DNA of 38,586 nt from a virus (IMGVR_UViG_3300013119_001005:1-38586); one strand, 5' to 3'. Shown: positions 4,335 through 21,180, counted from the first letter of the stretch. Numbers and translations are program-made. Notes: a model not told the origin generated them from the sequence alone.

Positions 4335-4752
4335 TAAACCCATCAAAAAGAATCGCATAGTACGGTTGTTAGAATTCAGAAAAGAAGTTCTAAAAATTAA
4401 TTCAGCAACTCTAAAGGAACTCTATCATCTTCAAGAGGATTACGCAATCTTCTATAATAAGATCACATCTCAGATTAGAGACAGAGTTCTAAGAGAACAT
4501 CATTATCCTCTCGAGGAATGGATAGAAGTACTCCGATGTAGTTCTTCTTTCTGGTTTGGACCAGGCGAAAAAGAAGAACGAATAAATAATGCTATTAAAG
4601 CTGGAATTAGAGACGAACTAGGTTTTCTTCCTCCTCAAAGGCTTGAGTCTTATAATCTCTTCAGCGGTCAAGTCTCTTCTCTAATAAGAAAGAAAGATCC
4701 TCGGATCGGAAGAGTTAAAGACGATAAGTACTATCGCTACTTTCTAAAATAG
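4324..4752 (+). CDS. Hypothetical helical protein
   Basis: AAGGAA (4311-4316) lies 7 bases before the ATG. The 142-residue product is basic and appears mainly alpha-helical (RLLEFRKEVLKINSATLKEL; HLQEDYAIFYNKITSQIRDR). No recognised motif. It is the last gene of the operon beginning at 3799 and is followed 22 bases later by a hairpin terminator. Confidence 0.6.
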   Translation: MKTNKPIKKNRIVRLLEFRKEVLKINSATLKELYHLQEDYAIFYNKITSQIRDRVLREHHYPLEEWIEVLRCSSSFWFGPGEKEERINNAIKAGIRDELGFLPPQRLESYNLFSGQVSSLIRKKDPRIGRVKDDKYYRYFLK

Positions 4753-4774
4753 TTTAACAACGAATAGTCGACTA

Positions 4775-4815
4775 CGGGCTTGTTAGTTCCTTTCTTTCTA
4801 ACAGGCCCGACTTTA
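4775..4815 (+). terminator. Hairpin terminator related to 3580-3623
   Basis: CGGGCTTGTTAG (4775-4786) pairs with CTAACAGGCCCG (4798-4809) with one G-T wobble, then ACTTTAC. The U-tract is weak. The right arm is near-identical to that of the terminator at 3603-3614, indicating duplication. Confidence 0.65.
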
Positions 4816-4879
4816 CATTCTCGCGATAATCCTTCGAGATTGCGTACCTACTAGAGGACCATCGAAAACTCTTACAAAT

Positions 4880-4891
4880 CTTACAGCGACC
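4880..4891 (+). repeat. CTTACAGCGACC box without the downstream hairpin
   Basis: The twelve bases match the boxes at 2440 and 3692, but the downstream leader is absent. About 15 bases downstream lies TCTCCTGTTA, which also follows (with different spacing) the inverted copy at 6393-6406. No plus-strand gene follows for over 1 kb, so this copy may be a protein-binding site rather than a promoter. Confidence 0.45.
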
Positions 4892-4998
4892 TTCACTTTC
4901 TCCTGTTATCATATTAAAATTACCAATCTTTCCATAAATCACTCCTATCAAAAAATTGCAATACAACACCCTATAACGACAAAAAATTACCGACATCT

Positions 4999-5135
4999 CC
5001 ATAGGACTCGCAACTACACTCACAAATCGAACACCCATTATATATTAAAAATTATATATATTAAAAAATTATATATTGATATTTTTGAAAAATTATTAAC
5101 AACCCCATAGGACACGCAACCCCATAGGACACGCA
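4999..5135. other. Iteron-like repeats flanking an AT-rich tract; possible replication origin
   Basis: The 17-mer ACCCCATAGGACACGCA is present twice in exact tandem (5102-5118, 5119-5135), and a degenerate copy, CCATAGGACTCGCAAC, is at 4999-5014. Between them, about 5037-5100 is almost pure A/T with three TTATATATTAAA-like words. Repeats beside an easily melted AT tract are typical of iteron origins, but operators could look the same. No initiator gene is recognised in the window. Confidence 0.4.
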
Positions 5136-5153
5136 AAAAAAATTTTGCAAAAA

Positions 5154-5195
5154 AAAGTTATGGGTATTTCCATTACTGAAAATACCCATAACTTT
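5154..5195 (-). terminator. Leftward terminator of the minus-strand cassette
   Basis: AAAGTTATGGGTATTT (5154-5169) is perfectly complementary to AAATACCCATAACTTT (5180-5195), a 16-bp stem with a 10-base loop. Read on the minus strand it is followed by a run of T (complement of the A-run at about 5149-5156), while the plus-strand side has no T-run. It therefore terminates transcription arriving from the genes at 5279-5922. Confidence 0.85.
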
Positions 5196-5278
5196 AAAGA
5201 GGTTTATTTTAGTTTATTCGTTAAGAATGCTATAAAATACAAAACACCATAATAAAACCAGTATGATTTCATAACCAC

Positions 5279-5524
5279 TCATCTTCTAATACCTCTGATT
5301 TCGTCATCCAATAAATCGTTTACAGAATTTACAATTCTGTTCCGTGAGTACGGTTTGCCTAATATGTGGTATTTTCTAATGTCGTTCTTTAATCTTAAAT
5401 AACATTTAAAAAATGATGTGAAATTTCGGTTAGAAATTTCATTAGGCAATTTGACAGTTAAGTCCGATGGATTCATATGAATCCATCGGACTTTTAACCA
5501 ATTCAGAATCAGTTTCTTGTTCAT
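5279..5524 (-). CDS. Hypothetical basic protein of leftward cassette
   Basis: The 81-residue basic product (starts MNKKLILNWLKVRWIHMNPS) begins with an ATG that overlaps the stop of the upstream gene as ATGA, so the two are translationally coupled. No family is recognised; the Lys/Arg/Asn-rich helical C-terminal half could bind nucleic acid. A 36-bp perfect palindrome lies within its early codons (5460-5495), which is unusual in coding DNA and could form a hairpin in its mRNA. It ends 84 bases before the leftward terminator. Confidence 0.55.
   Translation of the reverse strand: MNKKLILNWLKVRWIHMNPSDLTVKLPNEISNRNFTSFFKCYLRLKNDIRKYHILGKPYSRNRIVNSVNDLLDDEIRGIRR
5460..5495. repeat. 36-bp perfect palindrome inside a gene
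   Basis: Bases 5460-5495 equal their own reverse complement without interruption, centred on CATATG (half-site AAGTCCGATGGATTCAT). It falls in early codons of the leftward 81-residue gene. There is no T-run on either strand, so it is not an ordinary terminator. Possible roles are a binding site for a dimeric protein, an mRNA hairpin or a DNA-processing site. Confidence 0.85.
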
Positions 5525-5922
5525 TTAATCAATTTCATCAACATTTGTTGGGAACTGATTTGAAAACTTATTCCCTTTGTGTTACAATCACCAAATTTTT
5601 CTCTAATGATAGACAATCTACAATTTTCTAAATCGTCAATCCTTTGTAAATTGGAATTGTAATAGGTTTCGTGATGTGGTGTCGAAAACTTATTCTTGGT
5701 GAATTTTTGCAATGAAGCTCTTGCAGGTTTGCAAATATCCGCATCATACTTATCTACATTGTTTATCAAACCCAGCTCAACTGAATATTGAGCATAAGAC
5801 AAATGTATCTTCACCGATGAATCACTTAATTTAATCGGCTTGTCAGTATATTTTAAAGCTATTACCAATAGCTCTTTAACCGACAATTTACCTGTTCCTG
5901 TAGTTTCTCTATGTATCTTCAT
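5521..5922 (-). CDS. Hypothetical protein, first gene of leftward cassette
   Basis: Start chosen at 5922 (MKIHRETTGTGKLSVKELLV) because AGAAGGGAAA (complement of 5931-5940) lies about 8-10 bases upstream; a longer frame from 5985 lacks one. The 133-residue product has a helical start (SVKELLVIALKYTDKPIKLS) and a basic, polar C-terminal half. I do not recognise a family; a small regulator or nucleic-acid-binding protein is possible. With the 81-residue gene it forms the only leftward unit in the window, with its own promoter and terminator, the usual layout of a phage moron. Confidence 0.55.
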   Translation of the reverse strand: MKIHRETTGTGKLSVKELLVIALKYTDKPIKLSDSSVKIHLSYAQYSVELGLINNVDKYDADICKPARASLQKFTKNKFSTPHHETYYNSNLQRIDDLENCRLSIIREKFGDCNTKGISFQISSQQMLMKLIK

Positions 5923-6056
5923 TTTATTATTTTCCCTTCTTTTATTATTCCTATTGTAATCTACAACCAAGTAAATTACAACCATTAAAATTTAATTGAA
6001 TTTATCTACCTTGAATAGTATTCACAACTAAATTTTTCTCTCTTGTTCCAAATTTG

Positions 6057-6086
6057 ATTTTATCGGGAATTTTTGAGGATTGTCAA
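6057..6086 (-). promoter_or_regulatory. Sigma70-type promoter for the leftward cassette
   Basis: On the minus strand, TTGACA (complement of 6081-6086) is followed after 18 bases by TAAAAT (complement of 6057-6062). This is a near-consensus housekeeping promoter giving a leader of about 125 bases ahead of the gene at 5922. The leader contains TTGTAAT and ATTACAA arms that can pair. Use of a host-type promoter would allow expression independent of the phage programme. Confidence 0.65.
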
Positions 6087-6213
6087 ATTTACCGAAATTT
6101 AACGACTTAAAACCAAATTCACAATTTCAAAAAACAGTAGGATTCCCGACCCCTAAATATAGGTCTGTTTTAATAATAAAACATAGGAATCAATTTTTTC
6201 AAAAAATTTTTTA

Positions 6214-6228
6214 GAGGGATTATCCCTC
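6214..6228. other. Small GC hairpin in divergent control region
   Basis: GAGGGA (6214-6219) pairs with TCCCTC (6223-6228) around TTA, next to A/T runs. The region 5923-6315 contains this hairpin, the leftward promoter and otherwise AT-rich sequence without a convincing gene. It may be a weak terminator or an operator. Confidence 0.35.
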
Positions 6229-6315
6229 ATAACCAATTTAATCAATTTTCATAGTCTTAATATAATATACTTTACCAGGGAAATTGACTACATTACTGAA
6301 AAACAGGAGAAAACG

Positions 6316-6378
6316 ATGCAGTATGGTGCTATTATGCGCTGTTTCTATGATATACAGCGTGAAACAGGAGAAAACTAA
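6316..6378 (+). CDS. Possible 20-residue leader ORF
   Basis: A good ribosome-binding site (AACAGGAGAAAACG directly before ATG) opens a 20-codon ORF (MQYGAIMRCFYDIQRETGEN). Within it CGCTGT and ACAGCG can pair. The AACAGGAGAAAAC sequence recurs at its 3' end (6363-6375), followed by another very short ORF (6386-6403) that overlaps the inverted GTCGCTGTAAG box. It may be a leader peptide rather than a functional protein. Confidence 0.35.
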   Translation: MQYGAIMRCFYDIQRETGEN

Positions 6379-6392
6379 CAGGGGTATGCACA

Positions 6393-6406
6393 GGTCGCTG
6401 TAAGAA
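6393..6406 (-). repeat. Inverted copy of the CTTACAGCGACC box
   Basis: GGTCGCTGTAAGAA is the exact reverse complement of TTCTTACAGCGACC seen at 2440-2453. It points leftward toward the minus-strand cassette. As with the copy at 4880, TTTCTCCTGTT follows it in the reading direction. Confidence 0.6.
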
Positions 6407-6552
6407 AAGTCTGAGTTTTAGAGAAAACTAATAGGAATGTTGCCTAATTTGGTTAGCAATAACAGGAATATCGCATTGAAAGTTCATTGAAAAAAGCAAA
6501 GTCAAAAATTTTCTGGGAAAAAAATCAGTATTTGGAAAAGACTATGAGATTT

Positions 6553-6565
6553 TTGTATATTAAAG
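6553..6565 (+). promoter_or_regulatory. Candidate phage promoter motif, copy 1
   Basis: TTGTATATTAAAG ends one base before the ATG at 6567. Similar 13-mers lie at 8328-8340 and 8765-8777, each before a gene or intergenic start. If TATATT acts as a -10, transcription would begin at about the ATG itself, giving a leaderless mRNA; no Shine-Dalgarno is visible here. Confidence 0.4.
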
Positions 6566-6566
6566 T

Positions 6567-7211
6567 ATGGATATTATAAAATATAACCAAATTAGGCAAC
6601 AATTAGTTTCTTGTGAGAATATCGAAGAGATAAAAGATATCCGTGATAAGACGGTAGCGTTACGGAGCTATGCAAAGCAATGTAAGGAAAGTTTGGAGAA
6701 GCAAAATGAGATTGCGGAAATAAAACTTCGTGCCGAAAGAAGGTGCGGGCAGCTATTAGAAAAGATGGATAAATCAAAAGGTAATGCGGATCGAGGAAAA
6801 GATAGAGGTAAGAAGACTTTAGAAGAAATTGGGGTAAATAGAAATCAGAGTAGTAATTGGCAGAAGTTGGCTCGGATGAGCAATGAAGACTTTGAAAAAT
6901 GGTTGGAGGAAAAGAAAACTGCTGGGGAAGAAATAACTCTGAGTTCTATATTGAGGGATTATATTGAAGTTTCTAATAAAGAATCAGAGGACTTTGGAGT
7001 GGATTTTGAAATACCTGAATACGATGAGGATAGAGATTCTAGAATTAGCTTAGTTAATTATGTAGATACTGGATTGTCTTCTAAAACTTTCGTATTCAAT
7101 AAATCTGATCTCATAGAAATCTTAGAAATACTTAAAGGGCGAACTCCTGAAGAACAGGGTAAATTGATATATAGCACATTAAAGGAATTTAAAAAGCATG
7201 ATAATAATTGA
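6567..7211 (+). CDS. RAER-motif phage accessory protein
   Basis: The 214-residue product has a helical N-terminal half with IAEIKLRAERRCGQLLEKM, then a Gly/Lys/Arg-rich stretch and TLEEIGVNRNQSSNWQKLAR. This signature occurs in many phage proteins, often before ParB-like or MT-A70-like domains, and looks like a DNA-binding module (TLEEIGV-SSNWQKLA resembles a helix-turn-helix). The remaining part is acidic and has no recognised catalytic domain, so I infer a regulatory or DNA-binding role. It overlaps the downstream radical-SAM gene by 14 bases. No ribosome-binding site is visible, and the promoter-like motif at 6553 suggests leaderless translation. Confidence 0.6.
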   Translation: MDIIKYNQIRQQLVSCENIEEIKDIRDKTVALRSYAKQCKESLEKQNEIAEIKLRAERRCGQLLEKMDKSKGNADRGKDRGKKTLEEIGVNRNQSSNWQKLARMSNEDFEKWLEEKKTAGEEITLSSILRDYIEVSNKESEDFGVDFEIPEYDEDRDSRISLVNYVDTGLSSKTFVFNKSDLIEILEILKGRTPEEQGKLIYSTLKEFKKHDNN

Positions 7212-8304
7212 CTCTTCACAAAACCATATTTGTTCAGTACCGGTTAGAATGGATACATATAATCATTGTACATTTGGTTGTACTTACTGCTTCGCCAATG
7301 AATTTAGAGATCATCAACCTAATCTGAGTGGAGAAATTGAGAAGAAAATCAATCTATCTTCAAACCCAGATAGATTGATTAAACGTTTACCTTATCTAGA
7401 AGGTACCCCTATACATTGGGGTGGAATGAGTGATGGTTTCCAACCTATTGAAGAAATTAAAAGAAATAGTTTAAAATTAATGGAACATTATAATAAAATT
7501 AAATACCCTATTATAATCTCTACAAAATCAACTTTATTAGCTGAAGAACCTTATTTTTCATTGTTGAAAGAAGGTAATTACGCTATACAAGTCTCAATAT
7601 TCGGGAAATCCTGTGAATTGTACGATAAAGGTGCTCCGAAATATTCAGAACGTGTAGAATTTATCCAGAAAATCTCCTCTTATGTTCCTGTAATTGTTCG
7701 AGTCCAACCTTATATCGTGAAATTCCACAATGAAGTCTTAGAAATGATCCAAGAATTAAAAGAGGTTGGAATAAAAGGGATAACAGTTGAAGGAATTAAA
7801 CGAAAAGAAGCTACAAAAGGTTTCTTGAGAAAAAGTTTATCCGAATATGTATATCATCCTTCTTTTTTATTCCCTTATTTTAGAGAATTGAGAGAAAAAT
7901 GTCATCAAGTAGGGATCCAATTTTTTGCGGCTGAGAATTTACTCAGATTTATGGGAGATTCTTTAAATTGTTGTGGGTTTGAAGATATACGGGGCTTCGA
8001 AAATTCTAATACCTTAAATATCTTACAATTATTCCAATATAAAGAGATTACTTTTTCCAATTTACCAAAAATTAAGGGTATTGGTGGACAGGGATTTACT
8101 CAGACTACTGTTAAAAACCGGGTTATACAGTCTTTAAATAAAGAATCTGAGTATGGTTTTTATAATTTCTTAAGGTGGTATGTAAATCATGGGTTTTTTA
8201 AACAAGAATATTTGTTGAAAATCGTAGGGGAAGATTCTCAAGACAATTATATCTTTGAATGTTCTGATCCCGAAATTGAAGAATATAGAAAATCTTTAAT
8301 TTAA
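7198..8304 (+). CDS. Radical SAM protein, spore-photoproduct-lyase-like (COG1533-type)
   Basis: The 368-residue product carries C24-x3-C28-x2-C31 (HCTFGCTYCFAN), the ligand set for a radical-SAM 4Fe-4S cluster. Further on are GGMSDGFQPIEEIKR and IIISTKSTLLAEE, matching the TDxYQPxE and TKS elements of the SplB-like/COG1533 group. Members cleave S-adenosylmethionine to start radical chemistry; the named SplB enzyme repairs spore photoproduct in DNA. The C-terminal third (about 250-368) is not recognised and the substrate here is unknown; DNA repair or modification is possible. It overlaps the upstream RAER protein gene by 14 bases and so is probably co-translated with it. Confidence 0.8.
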   Translation: MIIIDSSQNHICSVPVRMDTYNHCTFGCTYCFANEFRDHQPNLSGEIEKKINLSSNPDRLIKRLPYLEGTPIHWGGMSDGFQPIEEIKRNSLKLMEHYNKIKYPIIISTKSTLLAEEPYFSLLKEGNYAIQVSIFGKSCELYDKGAPKYSERVEFIQKISSYVPVIVRVQPYIVKFHNEVLEMIQELKEVGIKGITVEGIKRKEATKGFLRKSLSEYVYHPSFLFPYFRELREKCHQVGIQFFAAENLLRFMGDSLNCCGFEDIRGFENSNTLNILQLFQYKEITFSNLPKIKGIGGQGFTQTTVKNRVIQSLNKESEYGFYNFLRWYVNHGFFKQEYLLKIVGEDSQDNYIFECSDPEIEEYRKSLI

Positions 8305-12780: not shown

Positions 12781-13404
12781 ATGGCAAAACAGGAAATAAT
12801 AACTTTTAATGTATCAGAGAATAGATTAGAATCACCCCAATCGGGGAGTTCTTATCTTTTTCCTGCAGATGTTTATATGTCTGAAGGAAAAGATTTTTTC
12901 TTTCAAGGTGTTTCTAAGTTAAATTTTGAAGATACTACTTGGCCCGTGATAAATTATGGTGCTGAAGTAGGAGACTATTGGAAATGTACTTCAGCCAATG
13001 GCGATGGTGCTTGGACTAAACATAAGGAATTTATCCGTAAACGAACTCGGGGCCTGTCAATGAATACAGTAACTTATATAGATTGGTATGGAGGGAATGG
13101 GACTACAGATTCAACGGCAATAAGAACTATTTGGAATCCTTCATATTCAGGAGAACTTCTAAAATTAAAATTAGGTTGTGAAGCAAGTTCTTCTGATACA
13201 AATGAATATTATCTTTATGATGCAGGAACTTTATTTGAATCGGGAATAATTACTTTATCTAGTCCGGGAGAAGGAACGATTAATTTTGATAGTGTTACTT
13301 TTGGGTTGGGAGCTTCAATACAACTAGGTTTTAGATCTACTACTTCTAGTGCAAATTCTTATTGGTTTATGGAATTAGTAGTCGCTTACAAGGATGAATT
13401 TTAA
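12781..13404 (+). CDS. Probable virion-associated beta-rich protein
   Basis: AGGAG lies just before the ATG, 9 bases after the LamG gene. The 207-residue product has Gly/Ser/Thr-rich beta-strand patterns and a Trp segment (GDYWKCTSANGDGAWTKHKE), followed by a strand-rich C-terminal half ending WFMELVVAYKDEF. That end looks like a small jelly-roll or fibre-tip domain. Together with the LamG neighbour it may form a receptor-binding pair. No family is firmly recognised. Its TAA overlaps the next ATG. Confidence 0.5.
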   Translation: MAKQEIITFNVSENRLESPQSGSSYLFPADVYMSEGKDFFFQGVSKLNFEDTTWPVINYGAEVGDYWKCTSANGDGAWTKHKEFIRKRTRGLSMNTVTYIDWYGGNGTTDSTAIRTIWNPSYSGELLKLKLGCEASSSDTNEYYLYDAGTLFESGIITLSSPGEGTINFDSVTFGLGASIQLGFRSTTSSANSYWFMELVVAYKDEF

Positions 13405-14150
13405 TGTCTGAACCATCAATGAATAGATTGAAACGTACATTTGATAAAAATGAAGAATTTAAAGGTGATCCACCTGTAATAGAGAAGGTTTCACCCTTAG
13501 AAGCTTATTCTTTAAAGGAAAATGGAGAACGTAATAGGAGGATTTGTGGAGCACAAAGAAGGGGTGCTCCACAAGGTTGGTATTGTATGAGACCTGCTGG
13601 TTCAGGGACTACACATAAAGGTATGGGGCCTTGTAAATTTCATGATACTGAAATTACAAAATCGACTAATACTTCTCTTTGGTATATTTTAAATAAAGGG
13701 GCAGGTCTTCCAGCCGTATTAGGTGAGTATTTAGAGAATGCTGAAAATATACAAGAAGATCATTTAGTGAAAGTGGATGATGATATCAAAATTCTATATG
13801 CTTTACAGTCTTTTATATTGTCACGAGATCCACTTACAAATTTAGATATAGATTTAGTTTTAAAGGTTAGTGAAAAAATCTTTAAAGCTAAAGAATTGAA
13901 AAAGAAATTAGATAAAGAAGTTAAACTTGATACAAAGACAGTAAAAGAATTTGTTAATCAAATTTTCTCTTTAATAATTTCAAATGCAAGTCAAAATGTT
14001 GCGAAGCGTATAATGACTGATATCTTAGATAAAGTTGTTATACCTTTTAATACTGAAGGTAGAGTTAAGGGAAATGATTTCTCTGTCAACGCTGAATATG
14101 AAGAAGTAGTGGAACAGTTGGAACTAACAACAAAAAAGGAGAGTAAATAA
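13404..14150 (+). CDS. Putative terminase small subunit with Cys/His cluster
   Basis: The 248-residue product has an N-terminal Cys/His cluster of zinc-ribbon type, running from RRICGAQ through YCMRPAGSGTTH to GPCKFHD. It resembles the CxxxxxxxGxRCxxxAGxGTxxCxxH motif in phage DNA-packaging and small-terminase-like proteins. The rest is helical (FKAKELKKKLDKEVKLDTKT). Small terminases recognise phage DNA and feed it to the large subunit. Position just upstream of the large-terminase gene, with only a GAF-like gene between, supports the call, but no classic DNA-binding domain was seen. The start overlaps the preceding stop. Confidence 0.5.
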   Translation: MSEPSMNRLKRTFDKNEEFKGDPPVIEKVSPLEAYSLKENGERNRRICGAQRRGAPQGWYCMRPAGSGTTHKGMGPCKFHDTEITKSTNTSLWYILNKGAGLPAVLGEYLENAENIQEDHLVKVDDDIKILYALQSFILSRDPLTNLDIDLVLKVSEKIFKAKELKKKLDKEVKLDTKTVKEFVNQIFSLIISNASQNVAKRIMTDILDKVVIPFNTEGRVKGNDFSVNAEYEEVVEQLELTTKKESK

Positions 14151-14765: not shown

Positions 14766-16967
14766 ATGAGTAAAGCAATTCAAGGATCAATCTATTCAGA
14801 AGCTCATGAATGGATTGATGAGTTTAAACAAGAAGGTCCGGGTACATTATTTGAATGGAATAAACATCGTGTAGAAGAATTTAGAAGTGTCTCTGTTGAA
14901 ACTCTCCTAATGGATGACTACTTTTTAGGTCTTAAGAATTCTATTTTTGAAGGTGTTGCTGAAGATATTATTAACCTTTTTGAGGAACGTAAAAAAAGAG
15001 ATTTAAATCTTGCAATATTCTTAGAAGCGATCGGGTGTGTAACAGGTAATACTTGGGTATATACTTTTGAAGGACCTAAGAAAATTCAAGATGTTTGTAA
15101 AACAAATAGGGTCGGAGAGCATGCTTGGAGAGAAGAAATATCTATTTTAACTCCTACAGGATTTAAAAAAACCTCTCATTTTAAGAAGACGGGATTAGAA
15201 AAAACTAAAAAGGTTCAAACAAGATTTGGTTATGAAATTGAAGGTACTTTAGATCATCCATTAGAGGTGTTAGAAAAGGGTGAGATAAAAAGTAAACAAA
15301 TGAAAGATCTTAATATAGGTGATTATGTCGCTATAGATATTTCAGAAAAACCTTTTGGGAAGAATACCGAATTAACTTCTGATTTAGGATATTTGATTGG
15401 GTATATTTTAGGTGATGGCCATATTAATAAATATGGGTTTGTAGCTACTACACAACCTAAAGATTTAGAGATTTTTGATAAATTAGAAATAATTCTAAAG
15501 AAGGAATTTGGTGATACTTATTTTATTAAAGAGAAAAAAGATGGGAACTTTACCTTACGAGCACGAGGAGAGAAATTACGAGAATTTTTGAGAAAGTATG
15601 ATTTAATACATTTAACTCCTCAAAAAGTAGTACCTGAAATAATCTTTAAAAGTCCAAAAGAAGTAGTTAAAGCTTTTTTACAAGGATATTTCGATGCTGA
15701 TGGGTCATTTAGTAAAAATAAATTTTCAATTTCTGCTAAAAATAAAGATTTACTAAAGGGTATTCAAGATCTATTACTTTTATTTGGTGTTATTAGTAGA
15801 ATTGCTTTAAAAAATTGTTCTTATCAAGGAGGTAAAACTACTTGTTGGCGTCTCCAAGTTAGTGGGGAACTTCTACATATTTTTGGGAAAGAAGTTGGAT
15901 TCAATTTAAAAAGAAAAAATGAAGCTTTAAATTTTTATTTAAGTAAGAACATAAAACATAATACTAATTATAGAATTCTACCTAATATACTTCCAATTAC
16001 TAAAGAAATTGTAAAAGAAGCTGATAAAGTTAATTATCCAAGATATAAATTATTTAAGACCTATTTAAGTGGTAATCAAAATTTTAGTTATGATCGAAGT
16101 AAACTATTTTTAGAACATTATCAAAGTACTAAGAATAAGGAAGCATTAAATTCTCTTCAAGAAATTGTAGATTATTCGGAAAACTTGGTTTGGTTACCTA
16201 TTGAAATTATTGAAGACTCAGAAAGTGTTTGTTATGATTTTACAATTCCCGAGACGGGAAATTTTCTCGCCAATGGGTTCGCTTCTAAGAATTCTGGAAA
16301 AACCTTTAAGGCATCAGTTATAACTTGGCTTTTATGGTATGAACTCTCAATGCATGAACACCCTCAAACCTTTTACAATTTAGCTCCGAATTCAATTATT
16401 GCTTTAATGGTCATGAGTAGGTCTCAAACTCAAGCAAAACGTATTACTTTTGGTGATGTTTGGTTAAGGTTTCAATCTCAATTTAATAAAGATTATTTTC
16501 CGGTAAATCCAAAGTTTTCTAATGAGATTAGGATTTCAAGGAATAATACTTGTGTTTATGCCGGAACTTCATCTGCTCTTTCTATTTTAGGTTATAATGT
16601 TTATGCCGCAACTATTGATGAGGCTAATTTCTTAGAAGTTATAGATGATTCTAAGAAAGCTATTGAAGAAGTATATGATGCGGCTGAAGAAATGTATAAT
16701 GCAGTAATGAATCGTATGACTTCACGATTTATGAAAGGTGGAAAAATACCCGGTTTACTAACAATGATTTCTTCTCCTCGTTATCCCGAATCTTTTTTGG
16801 AAAGAAGGATTAGAAGAGCAAAAGCTGAAGGGGTTGAAAACTTAGGTATGTTTTGGCGAGCAAGAAGTCTTTGGGAAGCAAAAGGAAAAAAATTCTTTCC
16901 AAGTAATAAATATTTTGTTGTGGATACGAAGACAATGAAAATATTAAAAGAAAATGTAGATGGCTAG
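14766..16967 (+). CDS. terL: Terminase large subunit, ATPase domain only, with in-frame intein
   Basis: The 733-residue precursor is a packaging ATPase interrupted by an intein. N-extein is residues 1-90, intein 91-509, C-extein 510-733, so splicing would yield about 314 residues. The joined P-loop is LEAIG/SGKTFKAS (its leading residue is not the usual Gly/Ala). Walker B is YAATIDEAN (about 613-621) and the coupling motif is MISSPR (668-673). The protein ends in KILKENVDG with no nuclease domain; in usual TerL proteins that domain follows directly. Here it is a separate gene at 17932. The stop overlaps the DEDDh exonuclease start by 8 bases. It begins 2 bases after the GAF-like gene, with a weak ribosome-binding site. 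Confidence 0.88.
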   Translation: MSKAIQGSIYSEAHEWIDEFKQEGPGTLFEWNKHRVEEFRSVSVETLLMDDYFLGLKNSIFEGVAEDIINLFEERKKRDLNLAIFLEAIGCVTGNTWVYTFEGPKKIQDVCKTNRVGEHAWREEISILTPTGFKKTSHFKKTGLEKTKKVQTRFGYEIEGTLDHPLEVLEKGEIKSKQMKDLNIGDYVAIDISEKPFGKNTELTSDLGYLIGYILGDGHINKYGFVATTQPKDLEIFDKLEIILKKEFGDTYFIKEKKDGNFTLRARGEKLREFLRKYDLIHLTPQKVVPEIIFKSPKEVVKAFLQGYFDADGSFSKNKFSISAKNKDLLKGIQDLLLLFGVISRIALKNCSYQGGKTTCWRLQVSGELLHIFGKEVGFNLKRKNEALNFYLSKNIKHNTNYRILPNILPITKEIVKEADKVNYPRYKLFKTYLSGNQNFSYDRSKLFLEHYQSTKNKEALNSLQEIVDYSENLVWLPIEIIEDSESVCYDFTIPETGNFLANGFASKNSGKTFKASVITWLLWYELSMHEHPQTFYNLAPNSIIALMVMSRSQTQAKRITFGDVWLRFQSQFNKDYFPVNPKFSNEIRISRNNTCVYAGTSSALSILGYNVYAATIDEANFLEVIDDSKKAIEEVYDAAEEMYNAVMNRMTSRFMKGGKIPGLLTMISSPRYPESFLERRIRRAKAEGVENLGMFWRARSLWEAKGKKFFPSNKYFVVDTKTMKILKENVDG
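15036..16292 (+). mobile_element. Intein with LAGLIDADG homing endonuclease, in the terminase P-loop
   Basis: The 419-residue insertion starts with Cys91 (CVTGNTWVYTFEGPKKIQDV, intein block A) and has a block-B-like GTLDHPLEV (160-168). Two LAGLIDADG motifs are present: LGYLIGYILGDGHI (207-220) and AFLQGYFDADGSF (303-315). It ends in TGNFLANGFASKN followed by Ser as the +1 nucleophile. The penultimate residue is Lys instead of the usual His, a variation known to be tolerated in some inteins. Both splice ends fit, and removal restores GSGKT, so it is probably active. A DNA cleavage activity would drive homing into intein-less terL. Confidence 0.92.
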
Positions 16968-17439
16968 AATTTTCTTAGATATTGAGACTACGGGGTTTGA
17001 TCCCAAAAAAGATGAGATTATTGAAATAGCGGCAATAAAAACTCGGGGAACTTATATTGAAGATGTTTTTCAAACTTTAGTTTGTCCTCGAAGGAGAAAA
17101 ATACCTAAACTTATACAGGATTTAACGGGTATTTCTCAAGTAATGGTAGAAGGTTTTCCAACGATTGAAAGGATTAGGCCTCGATTATTGAGGTTTATTG
17201 GTAATTGTAAAATTATAAGTTATAATGCACCTTTTGAACAACGTTTTTTAAGTAAGGTTTCATCTCGAATTTTTAGTAAGGATCGATTTATTGATTATTT
17301 AAAAGAGTTAAAATATTTGGAACCTAATTTATCTTCTTATAAATTAGAAGATGTAGTAGGAAAGAAAGGGAATTTTCATAGGGCATTAAATGACGTTTTT
17401 TACTTATATCAAATTTCTTATAAGTATGGTATTCGATAA
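16960..17439 (+). CDS. DEDDh 3'-5' exonuclease (DnaQ-like)
   Basis: The 159-residue product has exo I FLDIETTGFDP (D7, E9), exo II NAPFEQRFL (E93 where Asp is more usual) and exo III HRALNDVFYL (H140, D145). These are the metal ligands and general base of the DnaQ/RNase T superfamily. Members degrade single strands or proofread; a role in DNA processing is likely, with an odd Asp-to-Glu at exo II. The start overlaps the terminase ATPase stop by 8 bases (ATGGCTAG). It is the first of two genes that separate the ATPase and nuclease domains of the terminase. Confidence 0.82.
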   Translation: MARIFLDIETTGFDPKKDEIIEIAAIKTRGTYIEDVFQTLVCPRRRKIPKLIQDLTGISQVMVEGFPTIERIRPRLLRFIGNCKIISYNAPFEQRFLSKVSSRIFSKDRFIDYLKELKYLEPNLSSYKLEDVVGKKGNFHRALNDVFYLYQISYKYGIR

Positions 17440-17449
17440 GGAGAAGAAT

Positions 17450-17932
17450 ATGAAATATCCTAATGCGTTTAAAAAAGCAGTTAATCATCTTCTAGAAAAT
17501 GAAGGAGGTTATTCTAATGATCCTGATGATCCAGGAGGAGAAACGAATTTTGGAATTTGTAGGAGGCAATATCCTGATTTAGATATTAAAAATCTTACAA
17601 AGGAAAAAGCTGTTGAAATTTATTATGAAGATTATTGGAGTGCTCATGAAATTGATTTATACCCTAGAGGACTTCAAGAAATTATTTTTGATATGACCGT
17701 AAATTTTGGTTCAAGAGGGGGGGTTAAAGTAGTTCAAGAAGCGGCAAATAATAAAAACTCTCATCAAATTAAAGTGGACGGTTTGTTAGGGCCTGAAACT
17801 TTAAGGGCAGTGAAAAGTTTAGAGGTGGATCGAATTAAGGCTTTTCGTGTATTAAGGTTTGCTAAGATTTGTATTAGTAATCCTGATATGTATAAATATT
17901 GGTATGGTTGGTTTAGGAGGGCAACAAAATAA
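17450..17932 (+). CDS. Endolysin: GH108-type muramidase
   Basis: Start 17450 is set by AAGGAG (17438-17443); a longer frame from 17390 overlaps the exonuclease gene. The 160-residue protein begins with LLENEGGYSNDPDDPGGETN and then FGICRRQYP, the GH108 signature, with E18 as probable catalytic residue. A C-terminal region with NKNSHQIKVDGLLGPETLRA resembles the peptidoglycan-binding module that follows GH108. It would cleave the N-acetylmuramic acid-N-acetylglucosamine bond for lysis. No signal peptide is seen, so it needs a holin (candidates at 8962-9475). Its stop overlaps the next ATG by one base. Confidence 0.88.
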   Translation: MKYPNAFKKAVNHLLENEGGYSNDPDDPGGETNFGICRRQYPDLDIKNLTKEKAVEIYYEDYWSAHEIDLYPRGLQEIIFDMTVNFGSRGGVKVVQEAANNKNSHQIKVDGLLGPETLRAVKSLEVDRIKAFRVLRFAKICISNPDMYKYWYGWFRRATK

Positions 17933-18939
17933 TGTCAATTATTAAAGTACCTATGGAATTAAAAGAGAACTTTCTTCGAGATCCGGAGAATTTCATTAGG
18001 GATATTGCTGCAATTCCACTAGAAGCTCTCAGACCTTTCTTTAAGAGGAGAGATTTAATTGACCAAGTGGTTAACAAAAAATATATTAATCCTTTTGATG
18101 AGGAACATCTGGAATTTGATAGAGATTTTCAACGTCAAGATGGTGATACTTATAGGCGATTTATGCATATTGATTTAGGAATACGTCATGATGCAGTCGG
18201 GATTTCTATGTGCCATTGTCCTGAATTTGTTGCAAGAAAATCTGTTCAACGTCAACCCGATAATACTTACCAAGATATTACGATTTACGAACCTATTATT
18301 AAATTTGATTTTCTAGGTAGGATAAAAGTTAAAAAAGGTGAAGAAATTCTATTAAGTGAAATTCGGGATTTAATTTTTGAATTATCAAAAAGAGGTTTTT
18401 TTATTGCTTTAGTCACTTATGATCAATTTCAATCCACGGATAGTATACAACTTCTGAAACGAGAAGGGTACACAGTGGGGAGACTATCAATCGATAGAAC
18501 CACGCATCGATTGATTATTGACCGTAATCATGAGGATAGAATTCGTAGAGAATCAACTGAAGGTAGAAAAATTGCTGCTATGCAAGCATTAAAGGATGCA
18601 TTATATGAAGAACGCTTAATTATACCTTATCACCCTTATTGGAAGAAAGAAGCACTATCAGCAGAATATAATGAAAAGAAAATTAAGGTTGATCATCCAC
18701 CTATGGGTTCTATTGACCTTTTACAAAGTATAGCGGGATCAATTTTTAACTTAATTAATAATGAATATAAATATGATGATCGTGAGGATGATAAAGAATA
18801 TTCTGAAATTGAAGATAATTATTATACGGGTATTGAGGAAAATGACTTAAATTATGATGATACGGATGACAGTTTTTATGAAGATCATAAAAACGAAGGT
18901 GATCCACTAACACAAGGAGGAGTACAAGATGAGTGGTAA
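17932..18939 (+). CDS. Terminase large subunit, nuclease domain as a separate protein
   Basis: The 335-residue product starts IIKVPMELKENFLRDPENFI-RDIAAIP, exactly the linker that follows the ATPase domain in ordinary TerL proteins. An RNase H-fold nuclease comes next, with acidic residues D81 (MHIDLGIRHDAVG), D164 (LVTYDQFQS) and D262 (GSIDLLQSIAGS). It cuts concatemeric DNA at the end of packaging. A good AGGAGG-like site lies upstream, so it is translated independently. The C-terminus is very acidic. It overlaps the portal start by 11 bases. The protein must associate with the ATPase encoded at 14766-16967. Confidence 0.85.
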   Translation: MSIIKVPMELKENFLRDPENFIRDIAAIPLEALRPFFKRRDLIDQVVNKKYINPFDEEHLEFDRDFQRQDGDTYRRFMHIDLGIRHDAVGISMCHCPEFVARKSVQRQPDNTYQDITIYEPIIKFDFLGRIKVKKGEEILLSEIRDLIFELSKRGFFIALVTYDQFQSTDSIQLLKREGYTVGRLSIDRTTHRLIIDRNHEDRIRRESTEGRKIAAMQALKDALYEERLIIPYHPYWKKEALSAEYNEKKIKVDHPPMGSIDLLQSIAGSIFNLINNEYKYDDREDDKEYSEIEDNYYTGIEENDLNYDDTDDSFYEDHKNEGDPLTQGGVQDEW

Positions 18940-20620
18940 AATAAGAGATTTTCTTGAGAAAAGGTTTGGTTTAGTCCTTTTCAAGAAAAATGAATTAGAA
19001 ACTAAACTAAATAGTGTTCGAGCTGAGGAAAGGAGTTGGCATGAGCAACCTCGAGAAGAGGTTCCTGAGACTCTAATTCCGTTCGCAGAAGACTATTCTT
19101 ATTTATATGAGAGTGAAACTTTCCGTTCTTTAGAGAATGGTAAGAGTAAAAAGAAACGTAATTTTTTAGATAAAGTAATGGAGCATTTCACTGGAGGTTG
19201 GACTTCAAGAACTTCCTTATTGAAAGCTAATCGTCATATTGACGAAGACACTCTATTTTCTTTTCAGGATGCTGCTGCTATTAGGTATTATTCAGATCCT
19301 ATTGCAAATAGTATTATTAGTAATTTAACTCATTTCACAATAGGTAAAGGAGTTAAACTGTTAATTGATAATGATGAAGTTTTGGAAGTAGTAAAAGATT
19401 TCAGAAAAAGTAATAAGATGACCCATAGGGAACATCAATTTGTTAAGATGGGTTATATTGAAGGTGAAAGTTTTATTGCTTTATATATTAATAAAGTTAA
19501 GGGTGATGTAAAAGTTAGGCGTTTACGACCTACAGAAATTGTAGATGTAGAAGTAAATCCTGGAGATATTGAAACTCATTTAACTTATCATCAACAATTT
19601 AAGACTGTGCCCGAAGGTACTTCTCAAAATATTGAACAAGATAGATGGTTAGCTAATTATGAATATTTTAAGAGAATAGAAGAAGAACCCGAAGATAGAG
19701 GGAATCGAAGTAAATTTCATAGTAAATTAAGAAATGACCTTTTAGTTCTCTTCTCGAAGTTTGGTACGGATGATGAAATACGAGGAAGAGTCCCTATGGC
19801 TCCCGTTTTGAAATACTTAAAGTATTATGAAGATTGGTTACTTGATAGGATCAGATTGAACCATGAACGTTCTAAAGTTGTTTGGATTAAGAGTATTATT
19901 GGAAGAACAGCTGAAGGTTTAACTCGACAAAGACGTTCACCAAGAGGTGGAACGATGTTAGTTGAGAATGATAATGTTAAATACCGTATTGAGAATGCTC
20001 GTTTAGATGCTAATGATGCAAAAGAAGATGGCTTAGCAATATTATATGCTATTGGTTCTGGGGTTGGTTTACCTATTCATATATTAAACCAACGCTCTGA
20101 TCAAGAAGTATATGCAAGTATTAGAAAAGCTGATACTCCATTTTCTCAAATGATTATTGGTTTCCAAACTCATTGGTCAGAAACATTAGAACAGATTTAT
20201 CGTGTTGCAATTAAAGCTAAAGTAGATGCGGGAATATTACCTAAAACAACTAAAGTTAAACGCTTCTTAAAAGAAGGTTTAGTAGATGTATTTCAATATA
20301 TCAATAAGCAAATTGTTTCAGGTATACCTATTGAAAAGGTGGTTAAAGAGGGAAAAGAACTAATGGATAAATCTTCAGAAGAGATTGAAATTCCAACTGA
20401 AGATATACCTATTAGTATTGAATTCCCTGATATGGTTAAGGAAGATCCTCAAACTCAAGCTAGTGTTTTAGAGGCTCATCAACGTATGGGTATTGCTAGT
20501 TTAGCAACATTGGCTTCTAAAGCAGGTTATAATTGGCAAGAAGAATTAATGAAAATGAGTTTTGAGGAACCTGAGGAAGAACCTGAAGAAACACCCCCGG
20601 AACCAGAAGAGGAGGAATAG
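18929..20620 (+). CDS. Portal protein
   Basis: The 563-residue product follows the terminase directly and has portal features: a long N-terminal arm, then SFQDAAAIRYYSDPIANSII and SNLTHFTIGKGV, and a core with RRLRPTEIVDVEVNPGDIET. A helical region with APVLKYLKYYEDWLLDRIRL follows. The length is typical. It forms the dodecameric ring for DNA entry and the terminase docking site. The C-terminus is a Glu/Pro tail (EEPEEEPEETPPEPEEEE). A GGAGGAG site lies upstream. The gene overlaps the nuclease-domain gene by 11 bases. Confidence 0.85.
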   Translation: MSGKIRDFLEKRFGLVLFKKNELETKLNSVRAEERSWHEQPREEVPETLIPFAEDYSYLYESETFRSLENGKSKKKRNFLDKVMEHFTGGWTSRTSLLKANRHIDEDTLFSFQDAAAIRYYSDPIANSIISNLTHFTIGKGVKLLIDNDEVLEVVKDFRKSNKMTHREHQFVKMGYIEGESFIALYINKVKGDVKVRRLRPTEIVDVEVNPGDIETHLTYHQQFKTVPEGTSQNIEQDRWLANYEYFKRIEEEPEDRGNRSKFHSKLRNDLLVLFSKFGTDDEIRGRVPMAPVLKYLKYYEDWLLDRIRLNHERSKVVWIKSIIGRTAEGLTRQRRSPRGGTMLVENDNVKYRIENARLDANDAKEDGLAILYAIGSGVGLPIHILNQRSDQEVYASIRKADTPFSQMIIGFQTHWSETLEQIYRVAIKAKVDAGILPKTTKVKRFLKEGLVDVFQYINKQIVSGIPIEKVVKEGKELMDKSSEEIEIPTEDIPISIEFPDMVKEDPQTQASVLEAHQRMGIASLATLASKAGYNWQEELMKMSFEEPEEEPEETPPEPEEEE

Positions 20621-20829: not shown

Positions 20830-21180
20830 ATGGGAGTAAATTCGAGTAAATTTCCTAAATCTCGTAAAAGGGTAAATAAGAAAAAAAGCCCTACTACAAG
20901 GAAAAATGATATTAATGGTAAGACGCGTAACGGTAAAAAAGTTACGTCACCCAAGGCGCGATTAGGAAAATCTAATGGTAGATGGAAGGGCGGTACATCG
21001 AAATCATATCGTCGAGCCGTTGCTAATGCTAAAAAGAATGATGGTAAAGTAGTTCACCACAAAGACCATAATAAAAAGAACAATAAGAGGTCTAATTATA
21101 AATTGATGTCTAGGGGGGAACATAATAAAGCTCATCCAGAAAAGGGTGGGGACCATAGGAAAAAGAAGAGGAGAAAATAA
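20830..21180 (+). CDS. HNH-type endonuclease-like small basic protein
   Basis: AGGAGG lies before the ATG. The 116-residue product is Lys/Arg-rich. After GRWKGGTSKSYRRAVANAKK it has DGKVVHHKDHNKKNNKRSNY and MSRGEHNKAHPEKGG, which fits the HNH pattern (HH, D, N, N and EHxxxH). This looks like a small phage HNH endonuclease of the homing or packaging-associated kind. It sits in the head module between portal and protease, where free-standing HNH genes are common. Its role in packaging is unknown. Its stop overlaps the next ATG. Confidence 0.75.
   Translation: MGVNSSKFPKSRKRVNKKKSPTTRKNDINGKTRNGKKVTSPKARLGKSNGRWKGGTSKSYRRAVANAKKNDGKVVHHKDHNKKNNKRSNYKLMSRGEHNKAHPEKGGDHRKKKRRK

Follow-up and report, generated by a model that had tools for sequence, protein, structure and literature searches.

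The locus described here raises the question of whether the terminase large subunit (TerL) of a phage can be divided between two genes, with other genes lying between them, and nevertheless act as one packaging enzyme. The window, meaning the whole stretch of DNA that was analysed, comes from IMG/VR, where it is filed as a virus of 38,586 bases, and is probably a fragment. The first-pass annotation of this sequence suggested that terL is present as separate ATPase and nuclease genes, and the features that bear on this suggestion are collected in Table 1.

Two open reading frames as halves of one TerL

The identity of the two open reading frames (ORFs) has been probed using alignments, profile searches and structure prediction. 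The ATPase ORF ends in ...TMKILKENVDG and the nuclease ORF begins with MSIIKVPMELKENFLRDPENFI, and it had been claimed that the second gene resumes where the first stops. BLASTP comparison with nine one-piece TerL proteins of cultured phages, an alignment that the first-pass annotation had proposed as a check, bears out both this claim and the division into separate genes. The ORFs lie at the positions that had been given, and both halves align colinearly with one-piece TerL (25-36% identity, E values of 1e-37 to 1e-20). The spliced ATPase half corresponds approximately to residues 67-364 and the nuclease half to residues 346-635, placing the break in the interdomain linker of the one-piece protein. 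Residue numbers are higher in the alignment with the one-piece TerL of RcDurkin, which has an intein of its own. The spliced AIGSGKT and TIDEANF motifs of the ATPase half align with one-piece TerL, and the nuclease half has the RNase H fold and the three acidic metal ligands expected of TerL, as Asp81, Asp164 and Asp262 are retained without exception across 27 split and 65 one-piece sequences. A further criterion, that TerL is a single polypeptide, is unmet, since the halves have their own starts and stops in the window and in 52 other contigs.

Results from profile searches alone would not have identified these proteins. The nuclease half has no terminase match in Pfam or PHROGs, the matches of the window ATPase ORF in these databases fall within its intein, the intein-free ATPase half of the relative L026 has no PHROG terminase match, and that of L040 has only a weak, sub-threshold match to PF03237. 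A fold search was needed because profiles of both halves found no match at E 0.01 among the sequences of solved structures (PDB). Alignments of 38 and 41 relatives yielded AlphaFold models of the two halves with high confidence (pLDDT 87.7 and 86.7), and the top fold matches for either half are terminases. The best match for the ATPase half of L026 is the T4 gp17 ATPase (E 2e-8), and the best matches for the nuclease half are HK97 TerL and the G20c nuclease (E about 1e-4). In these models both halves fold as entire TerL domains, and the ATPase domain, which lacks nothing, ends directly after its last strands. The two ORFs are two halves of one TerL family and do not belong to different families, an outcome that the first-pass annotation had listed as a possible refutation. 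TerL is a hallmark gene for phage classification, yet it can be missed, because the window nuclease and a related ATPase half match no terminase model in Pfam or PHROGs.

The annotation also placed an intein in the ATPase half and an exonuclease gene and a muramidase gene between the halves. The intein is confirmed (residues 91-509 of the ORF, C...KN followed by SGKT; Pfam Intein_splicing E 6e-13, LAGLIDADG_3 E 1e-22), and its removal restores the Walker A motif (FLEAIG-SGKT). The identities of the two intervening genes also hold; the most likely start of the muramidase, preceded by an AAGGAG site, is at 17450 and not at 17390. The muramidase stop overlaps the start of the nuclease half (TAATG), which is preceded by a Shine-Dalgarno sequence with an energy of -10.7. 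Shine-Dalgarno strength before nuclease starts is mixed across the clade and is consequently not used as clade-wide evidence.

Downstream of the nuclease gene, a portal homologue is found in the 34 mapped split-clade contigs, apart from two that end within the nuclease gene. An HNH endonuclease-like ORF (20830-21180) lies between the portal gene and the next head genes of the window, and a radical SAM-like protein, with a Pfam score just below the cut-off, is encoded at 7198-8304. The product of the conserved gene upstream of the ATPase half has a Cys/His-rich N-terminal stretch, and its homologue in L039 sits between the TerL halves. That this gene encodes the small terminase subunit is only a guess.

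Table 1. Coordinates of TerL-related features; positions without a contig label refer to the window
Feature	Position	Strand	Basis
Conserved gene upstream of ATPase half	13404..14150	+	Homologue in most split contigs
TerL ATPase half, precursor 733 aa (314 aa once intein removed)	14766..16967	+	Colinear with N-terminal half of one-piece TerL
Intein, 419 aa, with LAGLIDADG endonuclease, in Walker A (AIG^SGKT)	15036..16292	+	Pfam; boundaries from sequence
DEDDh-type exonuclease gene, between halves	16960..17439	+	Pfam RNase_T E 2e-24; PHROG DNA polymerase exonuclease subunit E 1e-32
GH108 muramidase (endolysin) gene, between halves	17450..17932	+	Pfam Glyco_hydro_108 E 1e-24; PHROG endolysin E 6e-44
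TerL nuclease half, own gene	17932..18939	+	BLASTP; fold; Shine-Dalgarno AGGAGGG upstream
Catalytic Asp81, nuclease half (HIDLG)	18172..18174	+	Invariant in split and one-piece sequences
Catalytic Asp164, nuclease half (TYDQ)	18421..18423	+	Invariant
Catalytic Asp262, nuclease half (GSIDLL)	18715..18717	+	Invariant
Clade-specific inserted beta-hairpin, nuclease half residues 190-213, STEG motif	18499..18570	+	Sequences and model
Portal protein gene, immediately 3' of nuclease half	18929..20620	+	PHROG portal E 3e-10; conserved in relatives
Split-intein ATPase ORFs, L035	L035:3157-4428 and 4404-4910		
Split-intein ATPase ORFs, L038	L038:3114-4397 and 4352-4879		
C-terminal intein part starting its own ORF, L188 (only IntC ORF examined)	L188:2265-2816		

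Distribution and descent of the split

The search of related phages that the first-pass annotation had called for consisted of three scans of viral contigs (IMG/VR) followed by mechanical classification by ORF; a first all-family nuclease alignment proved too diverse for scanning. The ATPase and nuclease were found in different ORFs in 52 contigs besides the window. Each contig is counted once, and the count includes a near-copy of the window (IMGVR 3300009008_000378, 99.97% identical across 14.3 kb, possibly from the same or a related sample) and others that are mutually close; the remaining 51 of the 52 are divergent. All other relatives showing both parts are one-piece, with the exception of L225, which was rejected as a split form. 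Its TerL (4618-7325) is of the one-piece type, with the nuclease part on the opposite strand through local inversion or misassembly of the contig. The apparent split in Aeromonas phage HJ05, where two CDS lie under the match, was likewise rejected, as a single CDS encodes the whole protein.

Trees of the nuclease half group all split forms as a single clade (SH-aLRT 97-99; ultrafast bootstrap 100; the last tree holds 39 split sequences, with redundancy only partly filtered), and an independent tree of the ATPase half does the same (SH-aLRT 99). One branch separates one-piece from split forms in both trees. Tailed phages and herpesviruses generally have a one-piece TerL, and the split is accordingly regarded as derived. 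L116 has a nuclease half within the split clade, with the hairpin described below present, and no ATPase half was detected in its whole 23.8-kb contig (5.5 kb upstream included); possible reasons are a large distance between its halves or a truncated contig. No split-clade member was found among the cultured phages of INPHARED, where four divergent members have best matches of no more than 34% identity, one-piece in the cases examined, and the known members are all metagenomic. A scan of 84,980 species genomes of cellular organisms also found no split member; its yield was two relatives with a one-piece TerL and a single fragment in which no ATPase part is visible. The annotation had called the arrangement unusual, and searches of open-licence publications brought up no description of TerL with its ATPase and nuclease encoded by separate genes. 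Stand-alone nuclease-sized terminase models do occur in a viral fold library (e.g., Enterococcus phage EFLK1, 254 aa), and these may be pieces of intron-interrupted genes.

The distance between the halves ranges from 0 to 2,473 nt across the split contigs. The simplest form of the split is found in L184 and L188, in which the halves abut, with the ATPase stop and nuclease start overlapping (TAATG) and nothing between them. In the part of the clade to which the window belongs, the exonuclease gene lies directly or closely 3' of the ATPase half in most members, and the slot after it is occupied by lysis-type genes from families without mutual relation (GH108 for the window and L014-L031, Amidase_2 for L033); in L032 a DUF5675 protein is encoded there. 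Other genes between the halves encode a glycosyltransferase (L016), a radical SAM protein together with a weak sulfotransferase match (L014), and small products of unknown function (L040, L044, L105, L113, L118). No homing endonuclease gene was found between the halves in the members examined. The preferred reading of this variety is a single fission with later insertion of genes. In L184 and L188 alone, fusion of the halves through a minus-one frameshift is still conceivable; such fusion is impossible in the window and the other contigs with genes between the halves.

In some members the ATPase half itself is further interrupted. Inteins at catalytic sites are plentiful in the clade and are found in Walker A in the window, L033, L034, L042, L112 and L113, and next to Walker B in L112, L184 and L217. 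The nuclease half of L112 has an intein directly after the catalytic Asp164, and L112 (3335-6079 and 6595-8010) thus carries one split TerL with three inteins. The intein at the Walker B site of L035 and L038 is divided between two ORFs as IntN and IntC, with junctions ...GYNVY/CLTGDTE... and MKIISKKSLGKQKVYDAINSQTKNFMLNNGVIVHN/SGVVDEANF, and an ORF of L188 similarly begins with the C-terminal intein part. The ATPase half is broken by a split intein in two lineages, and in L035, L038 and L188 TerL consequently comes from three genes, two of which should, as predicted from these motifs, be joined via protein trans-splicing.

Several observations suggest that both halves are functional. The dN/dS values between neighbours are 0.03-0.07 for the ATPase half and 0.05-0.11 for the nuclease half, which indicates that purifying selection on both is strong. 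A correlation of 0.93 was obtained between the distance matrices of the ATPase and nuclease halves, and that of the portal correlates with each half at 0.94. As the correlation between the halves is no stronger than that with the portal, this result demonstrates co-inheritance and not contact. Another complete terL, which the first-pass annotation had named as a refutation, was not found, as neither the window nor any of 14 related contigs, the longest of 105 kb, showed a second terminase. Each of these fifteen contigs (some of them 67 to 105 kb) has one nuclease and one ATPase, apart from L116, which lacks the latter, and none has a Terminase_6N match above threshold, the sole weak one being the L040 ATPase half. 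Finally, an insertion of approximately 23 residues after the SxDRT motif of the nuclease is found in 39 of 39 split sequences and in none of 77 one-piece sequences, and forms a beta-hairpin in the AlphaFold model (pLDDT about 96). This hairpin may be a docking element that replaces the lost tether, an inference to which a mere clade marker is an equally possible alternative.

A proposed two-chain motor and its alternatives

The separate ORFs, their homology to TerL, the intact catalytic sites, the conservation across a clade, the purifying selection and the vertical co-inheritance are observed, and they are consistent with a model to which a probability of roughly 0.7 is assigned, namely that terL underwent fission once at the linker, that two chains are translated, and that the two-chain TerL pumps and cuts DNA. 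In this model, terL would have broken once at the interdomain linker in an ancestor of the phage clade to give two cistrons, from which an ATPase chain and an RNase H-fold nuclease chain would be translated as separate proteins; in the window, the ATPase chain would first have to splice out its intein. Several ATPase chains would form a ring on the portal, and nuclease chains would bind them non-covalently where the tethered domain sits in other phages, allowing pumping and headful cutting by the two-chain TerL. The break would also have opened the space between the halves to other genes. The separate chains are well supported and their hetero-assembly is inferred. Expression, physical association and DNA packaging through the portal are likewise inferences, as there are no expression, binding or packaging data.

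Non-covalent assembly is not to be taken for granted. According to reviews of T4 (PMC3012670 and PMC9958956, which cite Kanamaru 2004), splitting gp17 at the linker preserves the ATPase and nuclease activities and abolishes translocation; the gp17 hinge is described there as essential, and translocation as requiring both domains (PMC9958956). Consequently, a natural two-chain TerL either holds its nuclease non-covalently in the motor or has an ATPase chain that pumps alone. The second possibility, in which the ATPase chain is the whole pump and the free nuclease acts only at initiation and termination, outside the pumping ring, is considered unlikely, although it remains viable. It would fit the completeness of the ATPase half, the location of the nuclease gene up to 2.5 kb from the ATPase gene, and the finding that T4 nuclease-site mutants still package linear DNA (PMC3012670). 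It is difficult to reconcile with the need for both domains in T4 translocation (PMC9958956), and with the strong constraint on the halves and their retention together near the portal gene. Non-covalent holding of the nuclease is favoured, because the halves are strongly conserved and T4 pumping needs both domains, but the data do not decide between the two. It is fairly probable that this clade has a motor that works with its nuclease/translocation domain on a separate, possibly exchangeable chain, that the hinge regarded as essential in T4 is unneeded, and that three genes encode the enzyme in some members, with the products of two of them linked through protein trans-splicing. The clade makes it possible to test directly if tethering of the nuclease domain to the ATPase is required, whether this domain moves DNA or only cuts it, and how cutting is controlled.

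Joining of the halves at the RNA level, by a self-splicing intron or similar, is strongly disfavoured. Group I introns in phage terL are well known (PMC11878797) and the intron of herpesvirus UL15 contains UL16 (PMC7824580), but the first-pass annotation had noted that the two genes leave no room for an intron, and indeed only 10 of the nucleotides between the window halves (17440-17449) are non-coding. No Rfam match was found in the window or eight relatives, the intervening genes differ among relatives and are absent from L184 and L188, and each half has its own stop and start. A broken gene, a recent insertion or an assembly artefact, in each case without function, must be considered for a metagenome contig without reads, and the annotation had listed such an artefact as a refutation; this explanation is refuted by the comparative data, as recurrence in 52 other contigs rules out an assembly join, and the clade is old and monophyletic, with dN/dS of at most 0.11 in both halves and invariant catalytic residues. 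A split intein located at the break, which would join the halves as proteins, is the least credible explanation, because, although split inteins occur within the ATPase half of this clade (L035, L038, L188), no aligned member has intein sequence where the ATPase half ends or where the nuclease half begins.

Comparison with known systems

The one-piece TerL proteins of Vibrio SIO-2/VHB1-like phages, Agrobacterium phage JP1, Stenotrophomonas phage Summit, Maribacter phage Colly_1 and Gordonia phages have the same domains and catalytic residues as the split TerL, are colinear with the window halves at the identities given above, and in several cases are encoded near the portal gene. In contrast to the split clade, these proteins are single continuous polypeptides and their nuclease lacks the hairpin insertion. 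Interruption of the terminase gene as such is known: terL is interrupted by introns or inteins in Campylobacter phage IBB_35 (PMC3322345) and Bastille-type phages (PMC11878797), but splicing restores a single protein. In herpesviruses, the product of UL15 is also restored to one protein, through mRNA splicing. There the large subunit gene is interrupted with UL16 inside it, in antisense orientation (PMC7824580).

A closer likeness in gene arrangement is found in the genes-in-pieces ribonucleotide reductase, reportedly nrdA of phage Aeh1 with mobE, in which two cistrons, separated by other coding sequence, likewise encode an essential enzyme. Those genes arose by homing endonuclease insertion (Friedrich 2007, listed among the references of PMC3322345). 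In the split TerL, however, the members examined have no homing endonuclease between the halves, the break is old and at a domain boundary, and the insert can be absent or comprise several unrelated genes. Split inteins also occur in fractured genes (Dassa 2009, as cited in PMC6892783), which resemble L035 and L038, with IntN and IntC on separate ATPase-half ORFs, and L188, with its IntC ORF, whereas the ATPase/nuclease break itself is without an intein.

The artificially split T4 gp17 (Kanamaru 2004, as cited in PMC3012670) is broken at the same linker between the ATPase and nuclease domains. That split was made in the laboratory and lost translocation, whereas the natural split has been kept by a whole clade; in view of the T4 experiments, its presence throughout a lineage is surprising.
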